Shown: positions 23,246-27,666 of the stretch, in pieces | Position numbering within the stretch: the stretch's first letter is position 1 | Layout of the letters: each line of letters starts with the position of its first letter | DNA from: Neolewinella aurantiaca | Lineage (GTDB): Bacteria; Bacteroidota; Bacteroidia; Chitinophagales; Saprospiraceae | Reading direction: 5' to 3' | DNA: 64,000 bases | NCBI RefSeq assembly: GCF_008014675.1 | Contig: NZ_VOXD01000017.1 | Span: 62,001-126,000 of the forward strand | Position numbers and translations under genes: made by a program | The notes under the pieces: model-generated | What the model was told of the DNA's origin: nothing | Seen by the model: the letters and a program-made list of their open reading frames with translations, nothing else | Database searches by the model: none

Positions 23246-23253
23246 TATCTTTG
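23246..23253 (+). promoter_or_regulatory. metH -7 promoter element
   Basis: TATCTTTG fits the Bacteroidota -7 consensus TAnnTTTG and ends 21 bp before the chosen metH ATG. No clear TTTG is visible 19 bp upstream. Confidence 0.6.
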
Positions 23254-23274
23254 CGCGTCCTTAAATCAACGTTT

Positions 23275-26200
23275 ATGTCCGCTGCTTCTCTTCGCCAGAT
23301 TTTCTCCGAACGCATTCTTGTACTAGACGGTGCCATGGGTTCCCTCATTCAGGGCTACGGGCTGAAAGAAGAAGATTACCGGACGGGGTACTTTGAAGAT
23401 CACCCCAGTGACCTGAAGGGTAACCATGACCTGCTGGTTCTGACCCGCCCGGATGTGATCCGCGAAATCCATGAACTTTACCTGGAAGCCGGAGCCGATG
23501 TGATTGAGACCAATACGTTCTCCGGCACCACCATTGCCCAGGAAGACTACGGTACCGAGCACATCGTGTACGAGATGAACGTAGCCGCCGCGCGCGTTGC
23601 GCGCGAAGCTGCCGACAAATACACGGCCCGCAACCCGGCCAAGCCACGCTTCGTTGCCGGCGCCGTAGGACCAACCAACCGCACCCTTAGCATCAGCCCC
23701 GACGTGAACGACCCGGGCTACCGGGCCATCACCTTCACCCAACTGGCCGATGCGTATTACACCCAGATAAAAGGCCTTGCCGATGGTGGTTCTGACCTCA
23801 TCCTGATCGAAACTATTTTCGATACCCTCAACGCCAAAGCCGCCCTCTTTGCCCTCAACCGCGTCCGGGAGGAACTGGACCGCGAGCTGCCCGTGATGAT
23901 CTCGGGCACTATTACCGATGCCTCCGGCCGTACGCTATCCGGCCAGACCGTCGAAGCTTTCTACTACAGCATCGCGCATTCCAATCCACTCTGTGTTGGT
24001 CTCAACTGCGCCCTCGGGGCGCAGGAAATGCGGGTCCACCTCGCGGCACTCAGCAAAGTTGCCGAGTGCAACGTTCATGCTTACCCCAACGCCGGGCTCC
24101 CCAACGAAATGGGAGAATACGACCAGGACGCCGAAGAGATGCAGCAATACATCCGCGATTTCGCCGCCAGTGGCTTTGTGAATCTGATCGGAGGCTGCTG
24201 CGGAACGACACCAGATCACATCGGGGCCATGGCCAAAGCTATTGACGGAATGAAGCCCCGCGAAATTCCTACCCTACCGCCCTACTCTACCTATGCCGGG
24301 CTGGAACCTCTCGTGGTCAGACCCGAGACCAACTTCATCAACGTAGGGGAGCGGACCAACGTCACCGGTTCCCGGAAATTCAGCCGGCTCATCATGAACG
24401 GCAAGTACGACGAAGCCCTGGCCGTTGCCCTTCATCAGGTAGAAGGCGGCGCACAGGTGATCGATGTAAATATGGACGAGGGCCTGCTGGAATCAAAAGA
24501 AGCTATGGTAACCTTCCTGAACCTCGTAATGGCCGAGCCGGACATCGCCAAGCTCCCCATCATGATCGACTCCTCGAAGTGGGACGTCATCGAGGCTGGC
24601 CTGCAATGCGTACAGGGCAAGTGCATCGTCAACTCTATCTCGATGAAGGAAGGCGAGGAAGAATTTCTCCGCCAGGCAAAACTAGTAAAAGCTTACGGCG
24701 CCGCAGCCATCGTAATGGCCTTCGACGAAACAGGCCAGGCCGACACCGAAGACCGTAAAGTTGAAATATGCGCCCGGGCCTACAAGCTGCTGGTCGAGAA
24801 AGCTGACTTCAAACCACAGGACATCATCTTCGACCCCAACATTTTTGCCGTCGCCACCGGAATCGAAGAGCACAATAATTATGGCGTAGACTTCATCGAA
24901 GCGACGCGCAGAATCAAAGAACTTTGCCCCGGCGCCAAGATCAGCGGAGGAGTTTCAAACGTGAGTTTCTCCTTCCGGGGCAACAACGTCGTCCGCGAAG
25001 CGATGCACTCGGCTTTTCTGTACCATGCGATCAAAGCGGGTATGGATATGGGTATCGTCAACGCCGGCATGATCGAGGTCTATCAGGACATCCCCGAAGA
25101 TCTTCTTGTTCACGTCGAAGACGTCATCCTGAACCGTCGACCGGATGCGACCGAGCGCCTGACCGAGCTCGCTGAAGGTCTCAAGAACGTTGGTGGCCGC
25201 TCGGTCGTAAAAGACCTCGCCTGGCGGGAATCCACCGTTGAGGAACGCCTTAAGCACAGCCTCGTACGCGGCATTACCGAATTTATTACCGAAGACACCG
25301 AGGAAGCCCGCCTTAAATACCCCCGCCCGCTGCACGTAATCGAAGGCCCGTTGATGGACGGCATGAATGTGGTTGGTGACCTCTTCGGGTCCGGAAAAAT
25401 GTTCCTGCCTCAGGTAGTTAAATCCGCACGGGTAATGAAGGCCGCAGTAGCCTACCTGAATCCGTTTATTGAGGCGGAGAAGGCGGAAATATCAGCAAGG
25501 GAGGCCCTCGCTTCAACTTCCGACAACGGGGGTGCTCGCTCCGCTCGAAACCTCACCCCCGGCCCCTCTCCGAAGGAGAAGGGAGAATACGATGCTCGCT
25601 CCGCTCGTGAGCGGGTAGAGACGGTGGTTACTGACAATTACTGGCAGCTACCAGAAAAGACCGCAGGAAAGGTCTTGGAATACGCCCGGGCAATGAGAAA
25701 AACAGCTACTAAAGCCGAGCAAATTCTCTGGGATGCTCTTCGCGACCGCAAACAGGAAGAAAAATTTGTTCGTCAGAAGCCGATGGGGCTAAGCATTCCT
25801 GATTTTGTCTGCCTAAACAAACGCCTTATTATTGAGGTAGACGGAGGATACCACGACCGACCTGAAATGCTGCTGGCAGATGCTGAGCGCGATCAAAAAT
25901 TTGCTGACGCCGGCTACCTCATCCTGCGTTTTAAGAACAGCGAAGTAGAGACCAATCTGGATGCAGTGTTGGACCAGATTAAAGCAGAACTTCTTGCTTT
26001 ACCCGACCGTCCTTATCCCTACCCGACAGAAGCAATCTCGGTCCAAAATCCTGATCAAACTCCCCTCTCCCCCGGAGAGGGGCTGGGGGTGAGGTTACGA
26101 GCGGAGCGAGCATCCACGTCTCCCCTATCCCCCAAAGAAGAGTCTGATGTAAAGCTACAAGCGGAGCGAGTTACCTCACCCGCCCCCGAAGAGAGCATTG

Positions 26201-27666
26201 TAGCCTCCCGCCAGTACAAAGGCACCGTCCTCCTCGCCACCGTAAAAGGAGATGTTCACGACATCGGCAAAAACATCGTTGGCGTTGTTCTGGCCTGTAA
26301 CAACTACGAGATCATCGACCTGGGGGTGATGGTCCCGGCCAATAAAATTCTGGACGAAGCCCAGCGGGTAAATGCCGACATCATCGGGCTGAGCGGTCTG
26401 ATTACGCCTTCGCTCGACGAGATGGTCAACGTAGCCGCCGAAATGGAAAGGCGCGGCATGACGACGCCCCTCCTCATTGGCGGAGCCACGACCTCCAAGA
26501 CACACACCGCGCTTAAGGTGGAACCCGCTTACACCAAAGGAGCCACCATCCATGTGCTCGATGCCAGCCGGGCGGTTACGGTGGCCGGCAGCTTGCTGGA
26601 CGGCGAAGAAGAAGACCGTATCGCTTATAAAGAAAGCATTACCGCCGAGTATGAGCGCGTGCGGGTTCACCGGGCGAAACAGAAGTCAGAAAAAGCATTC
26701 CTGCCCATCGCCAAAGCACGGGAGAACGGCCTGCAACTAGACTGGGAAAACTACACGCCTCCCGTCCCCGGCTTTACCGGCACCAAGATCTTCGCTGACT
26801 ATGACCTGGCGGAGCTGGTCGACTACATTGACTGGACGCCCTTCTTCAGCAGCTGGGCCCTGGCCGGGAAATTCCCGGACATCCTGACCGATCATATCGT
26901 CGGGGAGCAAGCAACCACCCTCTACCGGGAAGCCCGGGAGATGCTGGATCAGATCGTTGCGGAAAAGTGGATCAGCGCAAAAGGCGTAATTGGCTTCTGG
27001 CCAGCGTCTGCCGAGGTGGAAACCGACACTATCAACATCATGGCCTCTGCAACATCGCCGTTGTCTACCTTCCACATCCGCCAGCAGAGCAAGAAGGCGA
27101 AAGGGCGCCCGAACCAGTCCCTGACCGATTACATTGCACCTGCGTCCGCGCAAAAAGAGGATTACATCGGAGCCTTTGCGGTGACCGCAGGAATCGGTAT
27201 CGAGCCCCACGTTAAGCGCTTCGAAGACGCCGGCGACGATTACTCGGCCATCATGCTGAAGGCCCTGGCCGACCGCCTGGCCGAAGCATTCGCTGAGCGA
27301 ATGCACCAACGCGTACGTATGGAATACTGGGGCTACGCCCCCGATGAGTCGGTTTCTAACGACCAGCTCATTGCCGAGCAGTACCAGGGCATTCGCCCTG
27401 CCCCCGGCTACCCGGCCTGCCCCGAGCACACCGAAAAAGCCAAAATATGGGAGTTGCTGGACGCCGAGGCGGCCACGGGAATTAAGCTCACGGAAAGCAT
27501 GGCGATGTACCCGGCCAGTTCGGTCTCAGGCTGGTACTTCTCCCACCCCGAAGCCAAGTACTTTACGGTACGCGGCATCAAACCCGATCAGGAAGCCGAT
27601 TACGCAACGCGAAAAGGCTGGAGCGAAGAAGAACGGGAACGCTGGCTGGCGGCTGTTAGGAGCTAG
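23275..27666 (+). CDS. metH: Cobalamin-dependent methionine synthase with an inserted DUF559 nuclease domain
   Basis: 1463 residues from ATG 23275. MetH transfers a methyl group from methyltetrahydrofolate to homocysteine. Domains in order: homocysteine/zinc domain (about 1-330, with GLNCALG and [11 protein letters not shown]), pterin domain from [14 protein letters not shown] (about 350-650), cap helices ending [10 protein letters not shown] (about 734), then an insertion (about 735-979), cobalamin domain (GDVHDIGKN, His995) and the AdoMet reactivation domain ([15 protein letters not shown]). Without the insertion the length equals the usual 1,230 residues or so. The insertion replaces a short linker and keeps the frame. 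The C-terminal domain also contains a translated copy of the dispersed repeat (APASAQ). All catalytic motifs I can check are intact. Confidence 0.96.
25532..26171 (+). mobile_element. DUF559 endonuclease cassette bounded by inverted repeats, inserted in frame in metH
   Basis: The left repeat at 25532-25585 and the right repeat at 26060-26113 are near-perfect inverted copies about 54 bp long, each with GCTCGCTCCGCTCG and a CCTCACCCCC..CCCCTCTCC palindrome. The left one translates as [13 protein letters not shown], a peptide commonly produced by a repeat widespread in Bacteroidota. A degenerate further right copy lies at 26119-26171 and a short direct copy at 25594-25607. Between them, MetH residues 801-909 form a DUF559 domain (Vsr-like fold): PDF with Asp843, IEVDGGYHD with Glu854, Asp856 and His860, then LRFKNSEV. 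No intein splice residues are seen. Confidence 0.85.
27134..27152 (+). repeat. Dispersed repeat copy inside metH
   Basis: TTGCACCTGCG-tcc-GCGCA, one mismatch, sense to metH. It is translated as the variable loop IAPASAQ just before the conserved DYIGAFAVT of the AdoMet domain. The loop keeps its usual length. Confidence 0.85.

Follow-up and report, generated by a model that had tools for sequence, protein, structure and literature searches.

Introduction

Rickettsia palindromic elements are palindromic repeats that lie in frame in protein genes, and they are not known to contain a nuclease. REPINs are dispersed inverted pairs of short palindromes that share their genome with a dedicated nuclease (RAYT). 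Homing endonucleases of the EDxHD type have been described as group I intron endonucleases, and the same review sees in the association with self-splicing sequences what allows homing endonucleases to enter conserved genes of a host (PMC3943268). Intrastrand triplex motifs (TM / PIT; Holder et al. 2015), in which a mirror block adjoins the two strands of a hairpin, are abundant in bacteria; that report gives those of Escherichia coli as always intergenic and never near a mobility gene, none having been found in their vicinity (PMC4666352). Here we describe a stretch of 64,000 nucleotides from Neolewinella aurantiaca (contig NZ_VOXD01000017.1, positions 62,001 to 126,000; ‘the window’) in which metH, the gene for methionine synthase (MetH), carries a DUF559 nuclease domain in frame between inverted triplex-type ends. 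With moderate confidence, we interpret the insert as a non-splicing, homing-endonuclease-like mobile element, composed of a Vsr/EDxHD-type nuclease and triplex-type ends, that lies in frame in protein linkers and has nuclease-free derivatives.

The element shares features with each of these systems. Like the EDxHD/Vsr-like homing endonucleases (3r3p, which we take to be I-Bth0305I), it holds a related nuclease (profile match 3.9e-7), is found inside genes, is patchily distributed and recurs at the same site; unlike them, the window copy shows no intein, is read in one frame with its enzyme and has inverted triplex-type ends. Inteins with a homing endonuclease are also in-frame inserts in essential proteins, and the DnaE intein of one congener holds a DUF559 domain, but the window copy has no splicing domain around it. 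With the TM / PIT repeats the element shares the three-block mirror–hairpin arrangement, the inverted pairing and the many copies, whereas the motifs here border a nuclease and lie in frame in coding genes. REPIN/RAYT systems likewise combine dispersed inverted palindrome pairs with a dedicated nuclease in the genome; the candidate enzyme here is DUF559 instead of Y1, and 10 Y1 loci lack these ends. The nuclease-free copies resemble Rickettsia palindromic elements, compared by description only, in being in-frame palindromic repeats. The parts are familiar, their combination is new to us, and in kind it is homing-endonuclease-like selfish DNA. Our search of open-licence papers, most of them judged without full text, found neither in-frame DUF559 inserts nor an association of DUF559 with triplex motifs described.

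Results

A nuclease with inverted triplex-type ends in the MetH linker

The metH frame has no stop from end to end, the insert included (Table 1), and its start is probably the ATG at 23275, as the protein P0002 has 1463 aa. Pfam lists the MetH domains in the order S-methyl_trans, Pterin_bind, B12-binding_2, DUF559, B12-binding and Met_synt_B12, with DUF559 (PF04480) in the linker ahead of the cobalamin domain, between B12-binding_2 and B12-binding (aa 992–1086). The match scores 100.3 bits in whole MetH and 103.5 bits in the insert alone, against a curated cut-off of 20.6, and spans profile positions 4–108 of 109. A sequence-only reading of the window had placed a complete DUF559 domain in frame at 25477–26215, which fits this assignment. 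It had also put MetH at about 235 residues over its usual length, with the excess in the linker before the cobalamin domain; the location stands and the excess is real, its size being about 210–230 aa by comparison with congeners. The linker stretch ending VKGDVHDIG measures 290 aa in this MetH and 58–82 aa in congeners free of the insert (81 aa in G002 and G008, 58–64 aa in six others; three further congeners are also short, G010 being left out of the comparison). A Pfam scan of the whole protein found no intein splicing domain, which rules out an intein, as the earlier reading had held. The frame of the window copy is continuous and no self-splicing setting was found in the search for inteins; introns were not searched for.

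The insert is enclosed by an inverted repeat of 60 nt, absent from the sequence-only reading, that is 88% complementary, with arms 474 nt apart. It scores 39, against a maximum of 13 at 141 random positions in the window. Both arms are translated within MetH, and they are not open in all frames. Each arm consists of a mirror block followed by two hairpin strands (e.g. CCTCACCCC CGG CCCCTCTCC nnn GGAGAGGGG), and the element as a whole reads [mirror-B-C]-nuclease-[C'-B'-mirror']. With a mirror block, a hairpin strand, its complementary strand and short loops, the ends have the architecture of intrastrand triplex motifs. In the left motif the mirror block CCTCACCCC (25551–25559) and loop CGG precede the hairpin CCCCTCTCC (25563–25571) / GGAGAAGGG (25575–25583), which has one decayed pair. 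The right motif reads CCCCTCTCC, CCC, GGAGAGGGG, CTG, GGGGTGAGG on the + strand; it forms a perfect 9-bp hairpin, its mirror block is outermost, and a single T lies within the purine third block.

Table 1. Positions in the window of the metH gene, its nuclease insert and the flanking host domains
Feature	Position	Strand	Basis or remark
metH open frame	23251..27666	+	1471 aa from TTG; nuclease cassette in frame
Host MetH cap domain (B12-binding_2, aa 663-736) and next helix	25198..25495	+	Pfam; comparison of relatives' linkers
Whole element, outer border to outer border of the 60-nt inverted repeat	25526..26119	.	arms 25526-25585 and 26060-26119
Left end region: TGCTCGCTCCGCTCG at 25533-25547, repeated at 25593-25607, enclosing the left triplex-type motif	25533..25607	+	repeat search
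Left triplex-type motif	25551..25583	+	translated in frame; repeat search
DUF559 nuclease domain (PF04480, aa 809-914)	25675..25992	+	Pfam; alignment A1
Right triplex-type motif, inverted copy	26062..26094	-	translated in frame; repeat search
Second right-end repeat copy, decayed, 73% identical to 26060-26110	26120..26170	-	repeat search
MetH cobalamin domain, where host sequence resumes	26215..26700	+	Pfam; reading frame

Triplex-type ends border DUF559 genes

Motifs of this kind are concentrated beside DUF559. At loci from the phylum (40 fetched, 6 short ones dropped), a motif lies within 500 bp of the nuclease in 24 of 34 cases against 8 of 136 displaced controls, and on both sides in 12 against 0. 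At named loci (80 kept, 8 short ones dropped; the controls are displaced positions in the same loci), the corresponding counts are 59 of 72 against 23 of 244, and 47 against 0 for both sides (Fisher 4e-32). At least one locus, L156/L229, is common to the two samples, and at L153 a run of N was scored as a motif in the phylum test, where a real motif is also present. In a test that uses no motif model (60 loci taken, 12 short ones dropped), an inverted-repeat score of at least 14 is reached at 26 of 48 DUF559 loci, 1 of 95 displaced controls and none of the 141 random window positions. Eleven of the 12 in-frame loci of the genus could be scored, and all 11 reach that value.

Mirror blocks agree with their own hairpins (0.648) more closely than with hairpins swapped between loci (0.574; maximum of 1000 shuffles 0.592; 237 hairpins). 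The 94 well-matched hairpins (at least 0.85) span 38 distinct stems, and this covariation of mirror and hairpin suggests that the three-block fold, rather than a single sequence, appears to be conserved. The association extends to whole genomes: a strong DUF559 match is present in 52 of the 68 genomes with at least three copies of one motif and in 115 of 324 others (p 8e-10).

The cassette recurs in unrelated genes

This genome contains three DUF559 matches, all in frame within long open frames: MetH, isoleucyl-tRNA synthetase (IleRS, on contig C13) and MurE (on contig C9). By our searches each of these enzymes is single-copy and the genome has no MetE (PF01717), and Pfam finds no splicing domain in any of the three. 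Because they are single-copy and the assembly is 99.3% complete (5,995,659 bases in 104 contigs, 0.14% contamination), these needed enzymes probably work with a nuclease domain inside them; the earlier description of a nuclease cassette in the linker of a needed enzyme is upheld. The MurE copy ends in a 41-nt inverted repeat (100%), and the IleRS copy in a 24-nt inverted repeat (92%) of different sequence, CCCCC-AAA-GGGGG.

The genus has 13 strong DUF559 matches. Twelve fall within open frames of 663–1928 aa and the 13th (301 aa) is at a contig edge; a 14th match is weak (E 6.5e-8). Among the hosts, some of them named from the reading frame alone, MetH accounts for five more species and IleRS for one, alongside MurC, a metallophosphoesterase and a DnaE intein. 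The last, in congener G006, holds DUF559 in the endonuclease position (Intein_splicing 70.5 bits by Pfam). Near-identical repeats of a few dozen residues precede this intein-borne domain (L068).

DUF559 is present in 27 of a set of 60 genomes, this one included, and in 222 of 392 genomes of the phylum, 167 of them at E 1e-12 or better. At least 40 DUF559 open frames in the phylum have 600 aa or more, this genome's IleRS among them. The hosts identified by Pfam include IcmF, UvrC, UvrD, LeuRS, HsdR, HsdM, type ISP, MmeI-like and Eco57I enzymes. A search with the IleRS copy gave 331 long proteins with a matching domain; among the best 120, which are listed, precomputed Pfam accessions presumably denote MetRS, aminopeptidase P, adenine deaminase, CarB and RecG. 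A search with the MetH insert alone gave 6 proteins. Among 50,697 phage records 3 contain relatives of the IleRS copy, and among 72,556 plasmid records 41 do; we rejected a phage or plasmid gene as the source. A scan of viral contigs gave 72 loci. The named loci, 80 kept from at least 556 confirmed DUF559 loci, are mostly from Bacteroidota; the others come from Anaerolineae, Methylomonas, Haemophilus, Omnitrophota and a Methanophagales archaeon, in which the cassette is inside an HsdR-like frame. A Pfam scan of 45 in-frame proteins from these loci, which omitted truncated proteins and two others for size, identified 20 class I tRNA synthetases (14 with the LeuRS editing domain), 6 MetH and 4 RecG, in a host sample that leans to relatives of the query. 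The sequence-only reading had pointed to other essential genes as places to look for the same cassette, and it was found there many times.

In a tree of 93 DUF559 domains built on 120 columns, in which many forks are unresolved, a genus-specific clade (100/99) contains the copies in MetH, MurE, MurC, the phosphoesterase and the DnaE intein. The MurE copy of this genome is sister to the MetH copy of congener G005 (98/90). A second clade (99/97), next to the IleRS copies (99/87), holds the MetH copies of other families, and MetH copies as a whole require at least three label changes on supported branches. This pattern indicates that one nuclease lineage occupies unrelated genes and that more than one lineage has entered the same MetH linker.

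Repeated gain at the same linker

The MetH linker is occupied by DUF559 in 6 of the 19 metH-matched genomes of the genus, this one included (5 of 18 others). In Flavobacterium, 249 genomes were searched and 231 matched; the 30 closest to an occupied one were examined, so the counts are not a genus-wide rate. Four of the 29 readable linkers are occupied and 25 are empty, with one further genome unreadable. Aligning metH from relatives, as the sequence-only reading had proposed, thus reveals empty sites in both genera; the outcome it named as refuting, that all relatives would carry the domain without inverted repeats, did not materialize on either count. Empty Flavobacterium linkers mostly read EAxKDxxSSSAGK. 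In the occupied ones, 7–11 codons of the empty linker are replaced by an element of about 140 codons, the ends of which are AGCCCCCC...GGGGGGCT in three of the four. On a host tree of 28 of the 30 genomes the four occupied ones are scattered among empty relatives, and supported branches force at least three changes; occupied G415 adjoins empty G570 (94/75, not a starred fork).

The divergence of the inserts bears on their age. Between G415 and G623, synonymous divergence (dS) is 0.31 in the nuclease (16 differences in 62.3 sites) and 0.81 and 0.71 in the host flanks (114.5 in 231.7 and 88.5 in 192.3), and judging from this lower value the insert seems to have arrived at this site after the species split. 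A Gillisia pair (L231/L227) points in the same direction, with 0.48 in the insert and 0.73 and 0.94 in the host.

Located by anchor motifs, the nuclease core lies in this linker in 62 of 83 listed MetH proteins and elsewhere in 21. These 21 (including P0047, P0050–P0052 and P0054–P0061) mark a second insertion region, 326–382 aa past the HDIG anchor, and at least one protein, P0028, has a core at each of the two places. Two nuclease cores per host protein were seen in six of eight proteins checked, picked for high score or length (P0025, P0026, P0028, P0029, P0032 and P0033); by their Pfam domains the hosts are MetH or IleRS.

The repeated hits on one MetH site would also be expected of a linker-specific DUF559 homing endonuclease that spreads only between alleles of one gene, with the motifs incidental to it. 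The same holds for the lower divergence of the insert in the two pairs, the scattered occupancy in Flavobacterium, the relationship to 3r3p and the use of DUF559 as an intein endonuclease. We nevertheless regard this explanation as unlikely, since one nuclease clade spans unrelated genes, motifs flank both sides of 47 of 72 loci and of none of 244 controls, and nuclease-free ends are dispersed through the genome.

The nuclease domain is conserved

The window DUF559 domain keeps all 16 invariant columns of a 13-row alignment (A1), with the conserved acidic, His and Arg residues intact; the assignment of catalytic residues among them is our presumption. A profile built from this alignment matches 3hrl, an endonuclease-like protein (1.4e-35), and 3r3p_A, ‘Mobile intron protein’ (3.9e-7), the latter showing homology to the presumed founding member of the EDxHD family. 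Matches to PvuRts1I (0.05) and E. coli Vsr (1cw0; 0.32) are weaker. The Vsr-related label of the sequence-only reading is thereby sharpened towards 3r3p, the resemblance to Vsr itself being the weaker part. A Thermosynechococcus DUF559 gene has been assigned to the EDxHD family (PMC9403480). The ratio of nonsynonymous to synonymous divergence (dN/dS) of the nuclease is 0.087 between G415 and G623 and 0.074 in the other low-divergence pair, which shows that the domain is under purifying selection.

The nearest in vivo hint that the family may cut DNA is VsrA, a Caulobacter DUF559 protein. It is reported to be needed for the SOS response of cells that lack the methyltransferase ScmA, and it is proposed to repair T:G mismatches (PMC12907096). 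Such a role, together with the purifying selection and the several hosts that are restriction-modification proteins, would suit a domesticated repair, restriction or regulatory nuclease, fused and kept for the benefit of the cell (e.g. for very-short-patch repair). This is improbable given the patchy occurrence among related species, the many unrelated hosts with no shared function, the inverted repeat ends and the presence of two copies in one protein.

Nuclease-free motifs and the E. coli ycjD locus

Triplex-type motifs without a nuclease are also present in this genome. In-frame copies, single or paired in inverted orientation, are found in genes for an RND transporter, an HsdM and a CusB-like adaptor (functions read from sequence); 20 fetched stretches contain 23 pattern hits, others of which lie outside long frames. 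The metH linker of congener G015 (L090) contains an apparent triplex-motif remnant without nuclease at the same site. G412 is without a DUF559 match; its 14 copies of the searched motif all pair up, giving 7 REPIN-like inverted pairs, 5 of them spaced 118–119 nt. The nuclease-free motifs look like non-autonomous derivatives.

At three of the G412 pairs (L376, L392 and L400) the flanking DNA is inverted for about 15–20 nt more, and these pairs may sit in, or bring, a longer palindrome.

The G412 pairs could also be taken to mean that the motifs are moved by a different enzyme, for instance a RAYT (Y1) transposase, and that DUF559 is carried along between two of them. Of the 10 motif-bearing genomes tested, 7 have Y1 transposases, this genome with 4 matches, two of them weak. 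At 10 of 18 listed Y1 loci, two with shortened flanks, none (0/10) has a G/C-rich DUF559-type motif within 500 bp, in contrast to the bordering of Y1 genes by repeats in REPIN/RAYT systems; three have lone motifs that differ in composition, and several bear their own inverted repeats. The motif-rich genomes G060, G080 and G162 have no Y1 match. With no link to the end motifs at these 10 loci, we rejected Y1 as the mover, and a separate mobility enzyme is very improbable; the candidate enzyme is DUF559 itself.

In E. coli K-12, TM_ECO no. 9 (1351204–1351239) lies 167 bp from ycjD, an annotated DUF559 gene (1351407–1351760; NC_000913). The last codons of ycjD are CACCCTCTCCC, and the gene ends in half a motif. 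The region is covered to at least 80% in 3333 of 5426 genomes. In the two strains fetched that lack ycjD, that place is taken by a TetR regulator and an efflux adaptor gene, and ycjD is reported in place of eefRABCD (PMC12817139). Because these genes occupy the place, no clean ycjD insertion is readable, and E. coli was rejected as an example of a clean empty site. The ycjD neighbourhood is suggestive as a single case. One E. coli strain has an IS1 element in the matched ycjD region.

Discussion

Comparison of these loci establishes the unit structure of the element, its recurrence in unrelated genes, repeated gain at the same linker, its patchiness and the existence of nuclease-free end motifs. 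From this we infer that DUF559 cuts DNA and mobilizes the element, that the ends are used in this process and that the element is selfish. The profile matches identify a DUF559/EDxHD-related nuclease, which presumably works in the manner of a homing endonuclease or a RAYT.

Inside a gene, the element has no start, stop or splicing parts of its own, and it settles in frame in flexible inter-domain linkers. As the reading frame indicates, its translation is that of the host enzyme, within which the G/C-rich ends encode, in the frames that are used, Pro/Ser- or Gly/Glu/Arg-rich linkers. The nuclease would then fold as its own domain beside the host domains and be active, and it would cut or nick the empty allele, its own folded ends or both. 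Repair of the break could copy the element into the empty linker or a new site, as a homing endonuclease does. The nuclease-free end repeats would be derivatives like REPINs or miniature inverted-repeat transposable elements. In essential genes the only survivors would be in-frame copies in tolerant linkers, and such survival would produce the observed pattern without foresight.

Several results weigh against this model. With respect to the ends, 13 of the 72 named loci, including several in-frame MetH copies, have no motif within 500 bp, and motifs are present at the 23 displaced controls noted above. Mirror blocks can also face inward (23 copies, against 32 outward, in the phylum test; 7 in each group are false ones from the L153 run of N). 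A folding model without a triplex term folds the ends no better than shuffles, and Holder et al. reported that stable triplexes at E. coli motifs had no support in vivo (PMC4666352). Our motif scan (stem at least 7, at most one mismatch) missed the E. coli motif beside ycjD. The link between nuclease and ends is also incomplete: 16 of the 68 genomes with at least three motif copies have no strong DUF559 (among them G080 with 21 copies and G412 with 14), 115 of 167 strong-DUF559 genomes have fewer than three copies of that one motif, and covariation of nuclease and end sequences across loci is weak (Mantel r 0.15, p 0.006). With respect to selection and movement, dN/dS is 0.20–0.32 between less alike Flavobacterium inserts. 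The IleRS insert of G000 and G003 is more diverged than its host (0.75 in the nuclease, about 0.53 in the host), as is that of the MetH pair L062/L063; these reversed pairs fit replacement of one insert by another, or an older insert. Most of the remaining same-site pairs are saturated or nearly so. A target duplication was not definable in the genus MetH linkers or in Flavobacterium, and sequence comparison revealed no transposition, cleavage or within-species polymorphism.

Assembly error or a chance open frame, to which draft assemblies and a run of N in another repeat array might point, has a negligible chance of being right: the inserts occur in independent genomes of many species, in 331 long proteins and in the named isolates Neolewinella lacunae (P0007) and Christiangramia fulva (P0064), and the window copy has no stop inside, shares its linker with 5 of 18 congeners and is accompanied by two more in-frame copies in its genome.

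The recurrent cassettes point to a little-noticed family of selfish DNA inside working proteins. Nuclease domains persist, conserved and in frame, in single-copy IleRS, MurE and MetH in which no splicing domain was found. A bolder interpretation, which we offer tentatively and at somewhat less than even confidence, is that the nuclease is both a passenger domain of essential enzymes and the mobility enzyme of bacterial triplex repeats, recognising folded ends as RAYT does REPs. Were this so, there would be a class of mobile elements that live inside proteins, the missing enzyme for triplex repeats would be at hand, perhaps including those of E. coli, and there would be selfish DNA whose ends, by encoding harmless linkers, make splicing unnecessary. 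Should the nuclease be what mobilizes the element, it becomes testable what spreads triplex motifs, what most DUF559 proteins do and how domains enter enzyme linkers. Annotators should be aware that a nuclease domain may lie within a protein that is named methionine synthase or isoleucyl-tRNA synthetase.

Other observations

In the HsdR of G320 (L140:3675-7691), a GIY-YIG domain (54.4 bits) and a DUF559 domain both lie ahead of the helicase, and the same linkers may be open to other nucleases of the homing type. In the present genome (G000), tandem arrays on contig C50 (L036:1900-4200) and contig C31 (L037) consist of long units that lie outside long frames, and every unit contains a related G/C-rich palindrome.

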